The position numbers and the translations under genes are program-made. From the IMG/VR virus record IMGVR_UViG_3300028027_000298, positions 1 through 20,225 of that record: a stretch of DNA of 20,225 nucleotides. One strand, written 5' to 3'. The stretch's first letter is position 1, and every line of letters begins with the position of its first letter. A model generated the notes under the pieces. It was not told the DNA's origin. It ran no database searches and saw only the letters and a program-made list of their open reading frames with translations. This document shows positions 3,039 to 16,851 of the stretch, piece by piece. This DNA is from a virus.

Positions 3039-3232
3039 TCTATTGCTTCTATTTTAGTGTCCAAAACTATTACATCCTTTCTAACTATATTTAATCGAAC
3101 TATCGAATCTTCTAAACTATTGATTAAATCTATTCTATTTGGATGCTTGTCCCCTATCCATTCGATTGAATTTCTATACTTAGCTATTATAGAGTCTATC
3201 TTCTTAATTGCTATAATACTATCTATTGTCAT
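3023..3232 (-). CDS. Small helical protein, paralogue of its downstream neighbour
   Basis: 69 residues if started at the ATG at 3232, which overlaps the stop of the SF3 helicase gene as ATGA. An ATG 27 nt further upstream is possible but would overlap the helicase more. The protein is helical and shares the RNS...I.DK.P.R...I pattern with the 75-residue protein encoded next. No known family recognised. Confidence 0.65.
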   Translation of the reverse strand: MTIDSIIAIKKIDSIIAKYRNSIEWIGDKHPNRIDLINSLEDSIVRLNIVRKDVIVLDTKIEAIEWMRS

Positions 3233-4665
3233 AATCCTTGTAATTGTGGTGAATCCCAAATATCCTTTTGCTCTTCATTATTATAGCTTTTAGTAGCTTC
3301 AAACATAATCTTTGTTATACCTCCAGCAGTTGTTGTATGATATTTAACTCCGTAGTGTTTAGCATACGATTTTAAACCAATAGTTAAACTATTTTGTTTA
3401 TACCACTTTCTTAATTCAGGATAAGCGTTTAAAAAGTTATCATAGATGGTTTTTACATTTACCCATTCGTTGTTTGGAATGGAAGGTATAAAGGTATGTA
3501 ATTCTGCGCTTATTTTATCTATTAGCTTTCTAATTTCTAAATTCTTTGTATTACTACGAACCAATCCATTATTCAAATATTTGCGCAAACATTCCATCAT
3601 GTAATTATCAAACCTTGCCCACTCTTCATTATCCCAATCATTAAATAATTTGTTTTTAAAGAACATTTCTGGTGTATAATCTGCATTAAAGAATGTGGAC
3701 ATCTCAACCTCAAACTTCCTAGCTTCATGACTTCCACCATCACCTTTAATAGTGTAGTTAGTTGTAATTATAATCTTTGGACTTTCCTCAACACTCAAAC
3801 GTATAGCATCCTTACCTTTATACTCTATACATATACCCTCTGTAATTACACTAAATAATGATTCAAAATTGAAGTTACGTTCTACATCGTCAAATACTAA
3901 AATTTGGCAGTCAGTAGATACGTTTTGATAAGGGAATGATTTATTAAAAGTAAATGTTTTGCCATCTAAAGACTGCACGTTTTTAATCTGTTTAAGTGCA
4001 TTCCAAATTAATCCTTTACCACTTCTACCATTTGGATTGTCGCTTATCATTTCATCGTTAAATATGATAGCTCTATTGTTAGAATTAGTCTTATATGAAT
4101 GAAGTAAGTAACCTAAAACAGACTGTAAAGTATTATATCTTTCAACATCTTCACCACTTACTTTCCATACAAATGTTCTAAATTGTGATTGGTGATGGTC
4201 TGCTTCGATAAAATCTCTGTTAATTACTTGTTTCTTCCAAATAGAAATATTTACATCTTTATAATCTATAATTTTACGCTCATCTTTTGTAATATTTACG
4301 ATACAATTATTATAAAAAAAGTAAGCATTATCTTTATCGTCCTTCATTACTTGAATCTCTTTAGTAGAAATCATAGAAAGAAAGTCACGTTTAAAGTATT
4401 TAAGATTACCAGACATTAAGTTATAAACTCCGATACCTAAATCATTTTGTTCTATGTGAGTAAGTATAAAGTCCTTTAAATCTGTTTCGTCTTTAATCTC
4501 TAAAAATATACCATTCTTTTTTATGATATTAAACGTGCTATTCGAGTTTGGTTTGTTCTTAAAATAATCGTATTTCTCTAAAAACTTCTTAAATAAATAG
4601 TTATTAAGGTCTATCTTACCATTCTGATTAACCGACCAAAACGGCATTAAATTATTATCGTTCAT
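3229..4665 (-). CDS. SF3 replicative helicase (D5/DUF5906-like)
   Basis: 478 residues. The ATPase core has Walker A in NPNGRSGKG (about 210-218), Walker B with paired Asp in ILVFDDV (255-261), motif C as KIIITTNY (297-304) and a conserved basic stretch SHEARKFE (312-319) that would supply the arginine finger. This is the superfamily 3 pattern of phage and plasmid primase-helicases. About 190 residues precede the core; I see no convincing catalytic primase motif there, so a separate primase may be encoded elsewhere. Probable role: hexameric unwinding at the phage replication fork. The start overlaps the MazG stop as ATGA. Confidence 0.88.
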   Translation of the reverse strand: MNDNNLMPFWSVNQNGKIDLNNYLFKKFLEKYDYFKNKPNSNSTFNIIKKNGIFLEIKDETDLKDFILTHIEQNDLGIGVYNLMSGNLKYFKRDFLSMISTKEIQVMKDDKDNAYFFYNNCIVNITKDERKIIDYKDVNISIWKKQVINRDFIEADHHQSQFRTFVWKVSGEDVERYNTLQSVLGYLLHSYKTNSNNRAIIFNDEMISDNPNGRSGKGLIWNALKQIKNVQSLDGKTFTFNKSFPYQNVSTDCQILVFDDVERNFNFESLFSVITEGICIEYKGKDAIRLSVEESPKIIITTNYTIKGDGGSHEARKFEVEMSTFFNADYTPEMFFKNKLFNDWDNEEWARFDNYMMECLRKYLNNGLVRSNTKNLEIRKLIDKISAELHTFIPSIPNNEWVNVKTIYDNFLNAYPELRKWYKQNSLTIGLKSYAKHYGVKYHTTTAGGITKIMFEATKSYNNEEQKDIWDSPQLQGL

Positions 4666-4964
4666 ATATTTTTAACAAAAGATCCGTTAACCATTTTACC
4701 TGTTCTTTTAGCTATTACATCGTAAGCTGAATTTATACAGTCTTCTAGGTTGTAACCGCCTAATTTAGCTAAGTTAACTAATACTACTACACAATCACCT
4801 AAAGCATCTATAAACTCTTCTTTATCATCTTTAATTATAGCTTTAGCCAACTCACCTGCTTCTTCTTGTAGTTTAACATACTGAGTTTTTACATCACCTT
4901 TTGCAAATATACCTTTTGCTTTTGCCCAATCTCTTATTGGTTCAAATTCATTTGTCATTTTCAT
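4662..4964 (-). CDS. MazG-like nucleotide pyrophosphohydrolase
   Basis: 100 residues, an all-alpha MazG-type NTP pyrophosphatase. The metal-binding signature is complete: EEAGE at 34-38, then ExxD at 50-53 and Asp57 in EFIDALGD. Family members hydrolyse NTPs or dNTPs to the monophosphate and pyrophosphate; the specific substrate cannot be read from the sequence. It follows the thymidylate-synthase homologue by 11 nt and overlaps the helicase start. In this setting it could remove dCTP and supply dCMP, as the dCTPase gp56 does in T4, or act more generally on damaged or competing nucleotides. Confidence 0.88.
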   Translation of the reverse strand: MKMTNEFEPIRDWAKAKGIFAKGDVKTQYVKLQEEAGELAKAIIKDDKEEFIDALGDCVVVLVNLAKLGGYNLEDCINSAYDVIAKRTGKMVNGSFVKNI

Positions 4965-4975
4965 AATTCTAAATT

Positions 4976-5755
4976 TTATTTTTTTATGTTAACTTTTAAT
5001 CTTGAGTGGTACTCATAACTATCTATAGCAATACCGTCTGCTTTATAAATAGATAGTGCTGGAATATTTAAAACCTTTGGTAAATTAAACTTTAATCTAT
5101 TTGCATATACAGATGCAGTTCCTATATGTTCTTCATAAATATGTCCATTTGCTGCATTTATTATAATTTCTCTAGGTGTTAAATCATGCTCTTTACAAAA
5201 AGAAACTAGCAGTGTTGCATACATAGCCATATCGTAGGGTAGTCCTATAAATAAATCTAAAGATCGCATACTTACAACAATATCTGCTATATTATTCTCT
5301 AATACAAATTGGAAAGCATAATGACAAGGAGGCAGAGCCATTTTACTTAAATCAGATGGATTCCACATGCTAACTAATAAACGCCTACTATTCCTAGTTT
5401 TTTTAAACTCTTCAGAAAGCTGGGCTAATTGATTTACTCCCGCAAAATTTAAAAGCTGGTGACCATATACAGGTCCTAAATCACCATTCTCATCGGCCCA
5501 TTGATCCCATATTTTTACTCCACGATCATTTAACCATTTAACATTAGTAAATCCATTTAACATCCATTCAAGTTCCGTAAAAACAGAACTAGGAAATATT
5601 TGTTTTCCGGTTACAATAGGAAAGCCTTCGCTTAAATTAGCTCTTATTTGAACAGCTGTTAATTGTCTTACACTTCCATTTCTGCCTATTAATCTTGTTC
5701 CCTTTTTACAACAGTTTTTAATTATAATACTGTATTCTTTTTCAAAATTATTCAT
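4976..5755 (-). CDS. Thymidylate synthase family; likely dCMP (hydroxy)methylase
   Basis: 259 residues, close to the 264 of E. coli ThyA and collinear with it. Conserved: IWDQWADENGDLGPVYG (82-98), SRR (123-125), catalytic Cys144 in LPPCH, RSLD (164-167), HIY (205-207). Relative to the catalytic Cys the spacings to Arg, His and Tyr equal those of E. coli (20, 61, 63). The residue 31 after the Cys is Asp175 (GLPYD), whereas thymidylate synthases have Asn177 (GLPFN). That Asn selects dUMP; Asn-to-Asp mutants of thymidylate synthase methylate dCMP, and T4 dCMP hydroxymethylase has Asp there. The C-terminus ends IKK instead of the usual APVA(I/V) tail. I infer dCMP methylase or hydroxymethylase activity; automated tools will call it thyA. 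Confidence 0.85.
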   Translation of the reverse strand: MNNFEKEYSIIIKNCCKKGTRLIGRNGSVRQLTAVQIRANLSEGFPIVTGKQIFPSSVFTELEWMLNGFTNVKWLNDRGVKIWDQWADENGDLGPVYGHQLLNFAGVNQLAQLSEEFKKTRNSRRLLVSMWNPSDLSKMALPPCHYAFQFVLENNIADIVVSMRSLDLFIGLPYDMAMYATLLVSFCKEHDLTPREIIINAANGHIYEEHIGTASVYANRLKFNLPKVLNIPALSIYKADGIAIDSYEYHSRLKVNIKK

Positions 5756-5758
5756 AAT

Positions 5759-6019
5759 TTATTTATTTAAGTAATCATTTAAAGATCCAACATAAGCTAC
5801 AAGATCTAGTAGGTTATCCTCTTTGTGTAAGTTTGATTGTCTAGCTAACTTTAAAGCTATTAGTACATTGTAACAATCATTAACATCTAAAAGCTTGTTA
5901 GACATAATTGAGGCTAGTTTGCTGGTGCGTTCCATACTTTCATGGAAATCTCCATATTGTCTCTCTTTTTCTTCAGATCTAAAATTAACAATTTCATTTG
6001 CTTTTTCTAAAATATTCAT
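5759..6019 (-). CDS. DUF6378-like phage protein
   Basis: 86 residues, helical. The pattern EKERQYGDFHESMERT (about 17-32) followed by LIALKLARQS and KEDNLLDLVAYV matches phage proteins of the DUF6378 type, which carry RQYGD...N/E and KxxR...KEDNxxDxxxY signatures. The function is not known. The acidic KEDN.LD motif is reminiscent of the helical metal-binding nucleotide hydrolases, and its place directly before the thymidylate-synthase homologue and MazG fits a role in nucleotide metabolism, but that is inference. It lies 3 nt before the next start. Confidence 0.75.
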   Translation of the reverse strand: MNILEKANEIVNFRSEEKERQYGDFHESMERTSKLASIMSNKLLDVNDCYNVLIALKLARQSNLHKEDNLLDLVAYVGSLNDYLNK

Positions 6020-6021
6020 AA

Positions 6022-6492
6022 TTAATTTGTGTGTTTAATGCAGTTAAAATTGTTTCTTATTTTTTTTGCTTGGAAAGCATATACAACAGTCTCACTTATT
6101 CCACATCTAATCCCATTAATTAGCTTGCTTTCAAAGTTTACTAGTTGTTCTTCTGTTAAAATAATTTGTACATAGTTGTAATATATACCATCGTATTCAG
6201 ACATAGATAAACTTGTATTGCTACCTTGTAAAACATATCCATCGTCAAATTTAATATAAACAGTTTGTCCTTTATCTACTATTTGTGGTTTGTAACAATT
6301 GATTTTAAGTAATAACATTGTATATCCACTGTTTTTATAAATTTGATAACTTCCAACTAATAACTTTGTAAAGCTAGTTTGTATAGTTCTATCCCCAGTG
6401 TATTCATCTACAACTGTTTTCACATCGCATTCTTGAGCAAATGTTAAACCTAAAGTTAAAACTGCTGCTACTGTTAAAATAATTTTCTTCAT
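6022..6492 (-). CDS. Secreted protein with signal peptide, function unknown
   Basis: 156 residues from the ATG at 6492. The N-terminus MKKIILTVAAVLTLGLTFAQ is a classic signal peptide with likely cleavage after Ala19. An in-frame ATG at 6531 would add 13 residues but overlaps the structured leader RNA and spoils the signal peptide, so the later start is preferred; it is preceded by a long A/U-rich stretch typical of flavobacterial translation starts. The mature part is beta-rich with several Cys (positions 22, about 66, and near the C-terminus). No domain recognised. As the first gene of the early operon, an exported protein might alter the host envelope, for example superinfection exclusion, but nothing proves this. 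Confidence 0.75.
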   Translation of the reverse strand: MKKIILTVAAVLTLGLTFAQECDVKTVVDEYTGDRTIQTSFTKLLVGSYQIYKNSGYTMLLLKINCYKPQIVDKGQTVYIKFDDGYVLQGSNTSLSMSEYDGIYYNYVQIILTEEQLVNFESKLINGIRCGISETVVYAFQAKKIRNNFNCIKHTN

Positions 6493-6521
6493 AATAAATA
6501 AAATAAATAATAAATAAAAAT

Positions 6522-6606
6522 GCCTCTCCAAAAAGCAAGGTCGGAATTTTACTAATTGAAGAGGCTAAAGTCTTATAGTGTTTTATATGGTTTCCGACCT
6601 AACACT
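6522..6606 (-). promoter_or_regulatory. Structured leader RNA with kissing-loop potential
   Basis: Seen on the minus strand. Hairpin A pairs AGTGTT (6606-6601) with AACACT (6582-6577). Hairpin B pairs GCCTCTTCAA (6565-6556) with TTGGAGAGGC (6531-6522): 10 bp with one G-U that would be C-A on the plus strand, so the fold belongs to the minus strand. The loop of A contains AGGTCGGAA (6600-6592) and the loop of B contains its perfect complement TTCCGACCT (6546-6538), giving a 9-bp loop-loop helix or pseudoknot. A putative promoter ends just upstream, so the transcript would begin near hairpin A. Hairpin B ends 29 nt before the start codon at 6492. Likely a regulatory 5' leader; the family is unknown to me. 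Confidence 0.6.
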
Positions 6607-7223: not shown

Positions 7224-8342
7224 TTAAAATAAAGTCGTAAGTCTTGCAACCTGCCCATGTGTTTTATGGAATATAAAGCCTTCTATTGCTAATGGTGAGT
7301 GTTGATACCCGCTTTTATGATGCCATGAATCGGCTGGACTAGGTGAACGTAGGGATTCAATTTGTACAGACATGATATCCTTGCTTGTTTTGTGGTGTAC
7401 GTGGTGAGTAAACCAATAACGATGCTTACAATCGTGCCAATGTTGACTAGCTTCGTGGCACATTAATAGAGGTAAGTCATTTTGTTTGGCCCCATCACCG
7501 TGAGTTGTACCGATTAAGTTCTTACCGTATGTTGTGTATTTACGATGTGAAGGGGACCTATCGAATGTTATGTTTGGGTGTTCGTTGTACCATGAATAGA
7601 TACTATCCATTAAAAAGAACCCTGACATTTCATCGTGATTAGATACATTATAGACTACTTCTAAATCTGCAATAGCTACTAAAGTGCTAATAATATCAAT
7701 GTAAAGCTGCTTTGCCATTAAGAACGCGTCGAACCACTTCATGTGCGTATCTTGTGGGGTAAATTTTGTAGTTGAATTTCGCGTGTTGTCCGTGTTTAAA
7801 ACATCGTTGCCTACAATAAGTATTATCTTATCTATATTAAAGCCTTTAGACTTGCTTAAAATCGATGCTACGCCATCCTTAACACGTTGCACTGCCATCT
7901 GTGAATTGTATTCCTCACCTGTTTCGAATGCAGAACATAGCTTATTTACGTGAATGTCGGCTGGGTCTATCAGTAAACAGTGTGAGTCTTCATCTGAATC
8001 CGTTCGAATTATCTGAATGTAGTTTGGTTTAATATCCTTAACCGATGCAATAAAGTCTTCTTTAAAGTCTTCGTATTTGAATGTGTCAGTCTCACCTTTA
8101 ACATTGATGGAATAGTGTTTACCTTTATACCAATAGTTCTTTATTTTCTCGGGGTCTATTCCAACGGCTTCACATTCTTCAAATACGCCACGACTTTTTT
8201 CTCTGCTTATGATTTCAGAAGCTAATCTTCTTTTGCTATCTGTATATTCCAGATTGTTTTCTGCACAGATTTTCTTTGCAATTTTAGTAATATTAACTCT
8301 TTGCTTATAGAGTTCTATTATCTCGGCTTTAAATTCAACCAT
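7224..8342 (-). CDS. Calcineurin-like metallophosphoesterase
   Basis: 372 residues. The metallophosphoesterase signature is present in order: DIH at 129-131, GND at 178-180, SNHDE at 234-238 (Ser replacing the usual Gly of GNHD), HGD at 281-283 and HHVHH at 313-317. These supply the two-metal site of the calcineurin/Mre11 fold. The N-terminal 55 residues look like a helix-turn-helix (VNITKIAKKICAENN, then a basic helix), so the enzyme may bind nucleic acid. Phage proteins of this shape are common in Bacteroidota phages but their substrate is unknown; DNA or RNA phosphodiester or nucleotide cleavage are options. It begins a new unit after a terminator and a dyad element. Confidence 0.85.
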   Translation of the reverse strand: MVEFKAEIIELYKQRVNITKIAKKICAENNLEYTDSKRRLASEIISREKSRGVFEECEAVGIDPEKIKNYWYKGKHYSINVKGETDTFKYEDFKEDFIASVKDIKPNYIQIIRTDSDEDSHCLLIDPADIHVNKLCSAFETGEEYNSQMAVQRVKDGVASILSKSKGFNIDKIILIVGNDVLNTDNTRNSTTKFTPQDTHMKWFDAFLMAKQLYIDIISTLVAIADLEVVYNVSNHDEMSGFFLMDSIYSWYNEHPNITFDRSPSHRKYTTYGKNLIGTTHGDGAKQNDLPLLMCHEASQHWHDCKHRYWFTHHVHHKTSKDIMSVQIESLRSPSPADSWHHKSGYQHSPLAIEGFIFHKTHGQVARLTTLF

Positions 8343-15897: not shown

Positions 15898-16851
15898 TTA
15901 ATTAGCTGCGTTTGTGATTCCGTAAGTCACGATATCTGAAACTGAGTGGTAATTAACAGCGTAACCAGCTCTCATAACAACTCTTACGTTATCGTCACCT
16001 AAAGTTTCAGCAGTGTCAATTAAACGTACTTCGTTAGCATCATTCAACAAACCACAACCAAAGAATAAGTTAGAAGTTTGAGCAGCGATTGCTTGGTTAG
16101 CAGTCAATCCGTTTGCTACGAATAATGGAATACCACCATAAGTCAAAGAACCGTTAGTGTACCATTGTGTCCCTTTGTTGTCAGTACCATTAGAACCTAA
16201 TCCTGCAGCTCCAAAACCACCTAATGCAGAGATATAAGATTTAGCGATATTTTGAGATACATAGATTTTCAAATCATCAGCTCCGTATACTGCAGCTGGG
16301 ATTGCTTTGTACACTTTTTCTAGCTCTTCGATAACGTTAGCAGCAGTAACAGTTGTACCAGCAACCTCGTTTGCAGTTGGTAAAGAAGCATCAGCAGTTA
16401 ATAATGTCATGATACCAGCCACTTGTCCGTCAGTAGCATTAACACCATTCCAAATAGATACCTCGATAGCAGCAGCTACTTTCTCTACTACGAATGCAAG
16501 TAAGTAATCAGCAAAAGATTTAGCTAAAACTTTGTTTGCAGAGAATCCCATTTCTTCTGATTGCCAGCTAGTTACGTAGTCTTTTTTGCATAAAGATAAA
16601 TTAACTTGGAAATTCTCTAAAGTTAATGTACGTTCTGTAATTGTTACAGTTGAAGTAGCAGAGAAATCACAACTAGCATTTGCTAAAAGACCGTCTGTAC
16701 TCAATTTGTTAATTACCGCTTTGTACGCGATGTTAGGCATGATAGTCATACCTCCGTTAGATAATGTGTTACCGCTTAATAAAGCAGCTTTTACCCACAT
16801 TCCTGAATGTTGACCAGCATACGTAGTCGTTAATGATGTTGTTGTAGCCAT
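15898..16851 (-). CDS. Major capsid protein, HK97-fold candidate
   Basis: 317 residues, typical capsid length. Ala/Thr/Gly-rich with an N-terminal arm (MATTTSLTTTYAGQHSGMWV), a helix around KVLAKSFADYLLAFVVEKVAAAIE like the spine helix of the HK97 fold, then NLFFGCGLLNDANEVRLIDT and a C-terminal RVVMRAGYAVNYHSVSDIVT strand. The setting is decisive: scaffold-like gene upstream, protease further upstream, strong terminator directly downstream. It assembles the icosahedral shell. The start is 8 nt past the upstream stop. Confidence 0.85.
   Translation of the reverse strand: MATTTSLTTTYAGQHSGMWVKAALLSGNTLSNGGMTIMPNIAYKAVINKLSTDGLLANASCDFSATSTVTITERTLTLENFQVNLSLCKKDYVTSWQSEEMGFSANKVLAKSFADYLLAFVVEKVAAAIEVSIWNGVNATDGQVAGIMTLLTADASLPTANEVAGTTVTAANVIEELEKVYKAIPAAVYGADDLKIYVSQNIAKSYISALGGFGAAGLGSNGTDNKGTQWYTNGSLTYGGIPLFVANGLTANQAIAAQTSNLFFGCGLLNDANEVRLIDTAETLGDDNVRVVMRAGYAVNYHSVSDIVTYGITNAAN

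Follow-up and report, generated by a model that had tools for sequence, protein, structure and literature searches.

The minus strand of the window, the 20,225-nt stretch of viral DNA analysed here, encodes a thymidylate synthase (TS) family enzyme with Asp instead of Asn at the position that selects the pyrimidine base (Asp-type, as opposed to the usual Asn-type). On balance, this gene probably encodes a dCMP 5-methyltransferase of TS fold that is supplied with dCMP by a neighbouring MazG-type protein and serves a phage DNA in which cytosine is replaced. A preference for dCMP is strongly indicated, and a methyl rather than a hydroxymethyl product moderately so, by the active-site residues, their conservation, the gene cassette and the predicted fold. 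The likely purpose is incorporation of the modified nucleotide into DNA. Neither the chemistry nor the Asp rule is new; no description of the phage clade or of its DUF6378-TS-MazG cassette was found in the open-licence papers searched.

A ThyA-family gene with a thymidylate synthase fold

The open reading frame noticed in the first-pass annotation is real. It covers positions 4976-5755 of the window and runs on the minus strand from 5755 down to 4976 (259 aa), and the plus strand of the same interval is crowded with stop codons. G+C content across the window is 29-36%. Its assignment as a ThyA-family enzyme comes from a PF00303 match (221.8 bits against a cut-off of 24.3, E 1.2e-65), from alignment, in which the Cys, Arg, His and Tyr of the superfamily are present, and from an AlphaFold model with pLDDT 95.3. 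The model superimposes on ThyA of both E. coli and M. tuberculosis (Z ~36, rmsd 1.2-1.3 A over 255 residues, tail included). T4 dCMP hydroxymethylase is absent among the best 50 structure matches of the model.

In the alignment with E. coli ThyA, Cys144, Arg164, Ser165, Asp167, His205 and Tyr207 of the window enzyme correspond to C146, R166, S167, D169, H207 and Y209, and Glu61, Trp83, Trp86 and Tyr97 to E58, W80, W83 and Y94. Further catalytic residues, Arg25, Lys51 and His145, are also present. The catalytic spacings of the E. coli enzyme, claimed earlier for Cys144 (codon at 5324-5326, minus strand), Arg164, His205 and Tyr207, are borne out at all four residues. Asp175 (codon at 5231-5233, minus strand) falls on the position of E. 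coli Asn177, with the same spacing of 31 residues after the Cys, again as first read. The window enzyme thus lacks the Asn of dUMP-specific thymidylate synthases and has the Asp of dCMP-specific members of the family. Overall it shares with E. coli ThyA the fold, the catalytic residues, both Trp, the equivalents of Leu143 and Val93 and the tail length, but differs in having Asp for Asn177, Phe for His51 and VNIKK for APVAI at the C-terminus.

Asp175 and the choice of substrate

The change of Asn177 to Asp is the known determinant of uracil-to-cytosine specificity. Mutants with this change make TS a dCMP methylase with 5-methyl-dCMP as product (cited in PMC8670742), and TS genes of cytosine-modified contigs from metagenomes typically encode Asp177 (PMC8670742). 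The same Asp/Asn specificity rule is given for T4 gp42 and MilA (PMC5175136). The engineered dCMP methylase N229D of Lactobacillus casei TS (Liu and Santi 1992, as cited in PMC8670742) has the same single change in a TS-like active site; however, it was made in the laboratory, whereas the window Asp is natural, conserved in a clade and found within a gene cassette. T4 gp42 is also a member of the TS superfamily, and its Asp179 corresponds to Asp175, in agreement with the first-pass annotation, although this parallel covers the choice of substrate and not the second half-reaction.

Asp175 is invariant in 26 of 26 non-identical close relatives (window included, 55-100% identity). Both Asp codons are in use, GAT 18 times and GAC 13 times in the window group, and 49 and 17 times respectively among all Asp-type sequences. 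Thus, selection holds this position. The idea that the Asn-to-Asp change shifts preference to dCMP is well supported by the Asp itself, by its conservation, by the literature on the same change (PMC8670742) and by the MazG neighbour, and the window enzyme very probably prefers dCMP.

CMP hydroxymethylases of the MilA type are marked by two substitutions, the active-site Ser being replaced by Ala and the phosphate-site Arg by Lys (PMC5175136). Ser165 and Arg124-Arg125 are invariant in the window family, so that by the MilA rule a deoxyribonucleotide rather than a ribonucleotide substrate is expected. Against the dCMP methylase reading, His145, at E. coli position 147, is kept as in Asn-type enzymes; this position is the second marker of modified contigs (PMC8670742), and it is Tyr in the Asp-type sister groups. 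The cytosine-modified contigs found by MetaGPA (PMC8670742) resemble the window in combining an Asp177 TS with a co-occurring gene of PRA-PH/MazG type, but carbamoyltransferase and dCMP deaminase also co-occur there, and position 147 is unchanged in the window.

An ordinary nucleotide-metabolism gene, with a thymidylate synthase that still acts on dUMP despite Asp175, would account for the PF00303 match, for the retention of all general catalytic residues and the His147 equivalent, and for the thymidylate synthase label given by both PHROGs and NCBIfam. Larger records of relatives, most of them fragments, were screened for other genes, and 21 of these hold one TS each with no second ThyA and no ThyX, which also fits a dUMP-active enzyme. 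However, the Asp is strictly conserved rather than drifting, and in the fetched loci the cassette of MazG and DUF6378 tracks the Asp form. The Asn-to-Asp mutant of L. casei TS reportedly lost most of its dUMP activity and gained activity on dCMP. Continued action on dUMP is therefore very improbable.

Methyl or hydroxymethyl product

In hydroxymethylases of the family, the third residue ahead of the Cys is Asp or Glu, which activates water, and a second water is held by Ser/Thr-x-Tyr; further marks of T4 gp42 are Val in place of Trp83 and the lack of a C-terminal tail (PMC6400193). In the window enzyme, Leu141 stands three residues before Cys144, where T4 dCMP hydroxymethylase has Asp145. Pro95-Val96-Tyr97 is found where T4 gp42 has Ser94-x-Tyr96, and Trp86 and a full-length tail are kept, whereas T4 gp42 has Val85 and no tail. 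The alignment recovers the Asp, Ser-Asn-Tyr and Val in T4 gp42 and the Asp in SPO1 gp29, and thus the signature test works on positives. The 26-member group keeps the Leu, Val-Tyr and Trp throughout, as in methylating ThyA. Every signature residue of PMC6400193 is therefore in the thymidylate synthase state in the window enzyme, and the hydroxymethylase option in the earlier proposal of a dCMP (hydroxy)methylase finds no support here. Given dCMP specificity, it is likely from these residues that the product is 5-methyl-dCMP rather than its hydroxymethyl counterpart. The residues agree with a predicted activity of the kind found in Xanthomonas phage XP12, whose dCMP methyltransferase converts dCMP to 5-methyl-dCMP. 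The predicted reaction and the outcome for the DNA (5-methylcytosine for cytosine) would be the same, the likeness being one of predicted function.

The tail is as long as that of E. coli ThyA (window YEYHSRLKVNIKK, E. coli YDPHPGIKAPVAI), and in the alignment VNIKK (4979-4993, minus strand) takes the place of APVAI. The first reading, that the usual APVA(I/V) closure is absent, holds for the replaced residues, but the C-terminus itself is present and of full length. The window family has a conserved tail pattern, R-x-x-V-x-V-x-K. In the more distant Asp-type sister groups, many sequences close with an ordinary VAV or VAI, and the Asp form can therefore do without the Lys end. As the ThyA tail seals the site against water, the altered end of the window enzyme, with Lys at both last positions, is the chief source of doubt about the methyl product, and hydroxymethylation may occur instead.

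With a dCMP hydroxymethylase, water would attack the methylene intermediate to give 5-hydroxymethyl-dCMP, and the DNA would carry hydroxymethylcytosine (hmC) or a derivative. The Asp shared with T4 gp42 and the lysine-ended tail, which could let water in, are points in its favour, and phages with hydroxymethylcytosine are the commoner known kind. Nevertheless, the Asp/Glu before the Cys, Ser/Thr-x-Tyr, Val for Trp83 and the tail loss are all missing, the similarity to T4 gp42 is remote (hhalign E 3e-16), and none of 22 relative records, most of them fragments, carries a glycosyltransferase-2 or a carbamoyltransferase. Nor does any of these carry a C5 DNA methyltransferase, and the lack of tailoring enzymes fits plain methylation. 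Hydroxymethylation thus appears unlikely.

For the favoured dCMP methylase, a mechanism can be proposed in which Asp175 would recognise and protonate the cytosine ring, replacing the uracil-reading Asn177, and Cys144 would attack C6, with the carbon coming from methylene-tetrahydrofolate. TS-like hydride transfer, and not water, would end the reaction, giving 5-methyl-dCMP and dihydrofolate. The comparison suggests a rule that can be tested by assay: Asp177 with Leu143 and Trp83 would denote a methylase, and Asp177 with Asp143 a hydroxymethylase.

The DUF6378-TS-MazG cassette

The TS gene is flanked by two small genes on the same strand. Directly upstream, after a gap of 3 nt, is a helical DUF6378 protein of 86 aa (5759-6019; PF19905, 46.7 bits against a cut-off of 27.1). 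Directly downstream, after 11 nt, is a MazG-type all-alpha NTP pyrophosphohydrolase of 100 aa (4662-4964; above cut-off for PF03819, at 34.4 bits, and for PF01503, at 26.5 bits). Its metal-site motif EExxE..ExxD is intact, with E35, E38, E50 and D53 invariant, as in members of the MazG family. A 478-aa protein (phrog_28855; 3229-4665, minus strand), the start of which overlaps the MazG stop by 4 nt, belongs to the same gene run but lies outside the conserved cassette.

All three genes stand together in 26 of 26 close relatives. Of the 66 Asp-type viral loci, 58 have MazG within 3.5 kb of TS, nearly always as the next gene, and 40 have DUF6378, just upstream of TS. The loci are mutually related, and these counts are therefore not independent trials. 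With the same MazG and DUF6378 profiles, there were no matches in the fetched Asn-type loci, viral (0/37) or bacterial (0/80). Outside the fetched set, phage Phi NF-1 is a counterexample to the pairing of MazG with the Asp form: its MazG, which matches the profile of the window family at E 4.7e-29, lies directly upstream of an Asn-type TS (OL634959.1, 29645-30747). MazG homologues of this kind are common across phages generally.

In phages with 2-aminoadenine, the MazG-type protein MazZ adjoins PurZ and supplies the monophosphate that PurZ uses (PMC8342488). By the same logic, the MazG of the cassette may turn dCTP into dCMP. It presumably shares a superfamily with the T4 dCTPase gp56, although hhalign gave no match between the two. 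The Z-cluster of cyanophage S-2L (PurZ, MazZ, DatZ) is like the window in joining a base-making enzyme, a MazG-type monophosphate supplier and a third small gene. It differs in its base, 2-aminoadenine, in its MazG-type protein, which has no BLAST match to that of the window (a forced alignment gives 22% identity and lines up the EExxE residues), and in its third gene, DatZ, of which DUF6378 is at most a possible counterpart. Kinship with MazZ or gp56 is not visible in the sequence, and the substrate of the cassette MazG is thus inferred.

The model of the DUF6378 protein (pLDDT 86) has no clear fold match (all Foldseek E >2; best Z 5.0, to a helical bundle). DUF6378, considered as a possible MazG relative, matches neither MazG nor gp56 profiles, and tblastn of the window copy gave no match in named phages. 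Taking the Z-cluster as a guide, one may speculate, with some doubt, that the three genes of the cassette are a compact system that is enough to exchange cytosine for 5-methylcytosine in the DNA of many uncultivated phages without a phage kinase, DUF6378 being a new functional part (e.g. in dCTP removal or 5-methyl-dCMP handling).

The adjacent MazG of many Asp-type relatives is fused to an N-terminal region of 150-190 aa that begins like YYIYHIPGKKIGVTRNLNKRV (L097:3442-4200, L100:6774-7526, L115:6505-7290 and about 27 more loci). This region looks like a GIY-YIG or T5orf172-type domain, and is not recognised by Pfam. N-terminal fusions are reported as frequent in MazZ of the S-2L type (PMC8342488). 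A small conserved protein (IGPYNGxFSxNIITY..., 76-79 aa) is found beside the cassette in L006-L009 and L005, and a protein of this type is fused to the MazG C-terminus in L023-L025. Around the cassette, the minus strand of the window also carries a replication and repair set, consisting of an endonuclease-like gene (phrog_93, 1381-1653), a ResIII/SNF2 helicase (phrog_62, 1637-2863) and a DNA-repair-exonuclease-like gene (phrog_704, 7224-8342).

A proposed route from 5-methyl-dCMP to DNA

Under the preferred reading as a dCMP methylase, MazG would cut dCTP to dCMP, both feeding the methylase and lowering the competing dCTP pool, and DUF6378 would be an accessory. A host kinase, or one so far unrecognised, would then phosphorylate the 5-methyl-dCMP, and 5-methylcytosine would enter phage DNA instead of cytosine and shield it from host nucleases. 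The thymidylate kinase family PF02223 is found in none of the 22 relative records, which are mostly fragments, and no nucleotide kinase is among 25 of the 27 Pfam families listed for G001 (IMGVR_UViG_3300006868_000042), a 37.65 kb record that has the cassette and phage genes. G001 is classed as linear, but its ends share an exact 80-bp overlap, and it is therefore probably a complete genome. As 5-methyl-dCMP cannot enter DNA before it is phosphorylated, the missing kinase leaves the model incomplete. The poor performance of 5-substituted dCMP as a substrate for some cellular kinases also counts against it.

Of 21 relative records, one (G006, IMGVR_UViG_3300042446_000627) has a gene for dCMP deaminase, at 6250-6552; its Asp-type TS follows about 0.6 kb downstream. 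In AP013540.1 (31557-33578), an NTP pyrophosphohydrolase, a dTMP kinase, an Asp-type ThyA with Tyr at position 147 and a dCMP deaminase stand in a row, which is possibly a complete 5-methyl-dCTP pathway. The Asp-type gene of this record is annotated as thymidylate synthase.

These deaminase genes bear on a different fate for the product, in which a host or phage dCMP deaminase would convert 5-methyl-dCMP to dTMP. The DNA would then be ordinary, and the cassette would boost dTTP from dCTP in an A+T-rich phage. The position of the deaminase just upstream of, or adjoining, TS in the two records above and the lack of PF02223 are in keeping with such a route, and phage XP12 is reported to induce a 5-methyl-dCTP deaminase. 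However, the deaminase is missing in 20 of the 21 records, and an ordinary Asn-type TS would be a more direct way to the same end. As dCMP deaminase also occurs in T4-like hmC phages, its presence does not decide for this route, which seems quite improbable.

Very few phages are known in which 5-methylcytosine fully replaces cytosine; XP12 is the textbook case. If the dCMP methylase reading is true, such replacement would be carried by a broad metagenomic phage clade, through a gene annotated simply as thymidylate synthase, and would come with a conserved pool-control gene. DUF6378 would gain a functional context. The clade would also be a source of enzymes for 5-methyl-dCTP synthesis and of natural, fully 5mC DNA.

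Distribution and phylogeny of the Asp-type enzymes

Relatives were drawn from IMG/VR and from bacterial genomes. Asp was found in 66 distinct viral sequences and Asn in 37, and the bacterial sequences are all Asn-type (80/80); the full alignment set has 67 Asp-type and 120 Asn-type rows. The search started from the window family, and these counts are therefore no estimate of how common the Asp form is. In the maximum-likelihood tree, the clade of the window enzyme (SH-aLRT 90) has 31 rows, all with Asp; it consists of viral contigs only and lies outside all cellular ThyA rows. Free trees require three to four changes to explain the Asp, but the data are also compatible with one Asp clade (p-AU 0.914). 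T4 gp42 was considered as a sister of the window enzyme and set aside, as both it and SPO1 gp29 sit on very long branches and cannot be placed by the tree.

No record of the INPHARED phage collection matches the window enzyme at more than 60% identity, and of nine records inspected, the eight that could be read are all Asn-type; the residues of Microbacterium phage Golden are left out. Two further records are the faecal contig MT836065, which is Asn-type, and the uncultured marine Votkovvirus AP013540, which is Asp-type. The window virus belongs to a large group of as yet uncultivated phages in which this small gene cassette is conserved.

At 15898-16851 the window encodes a 317-aa protein that its position and PHROG suggest to be capsid-like. 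Among named phages, only Nonlabens phages P12024S and P12024L have relatives of it (29% identity). Through this protein, P12024S (Inhavirus) is the nearest named phage, and its gene order is similar to that of the window, but no thymidylate synthase gene is annotated in it. The host of both phages is a flavobacterium, and a host of Flavobacteriia type is likely for the window virus.

A separate Asp-type clade (L094, L106, L110, L115 and L140) has Asp for Trp83 and Tyr for Ile79, and its TS genes lie beside the fusion of the GIY-YIG-like region with MazG. The second half of the reaction may be different in this clade.
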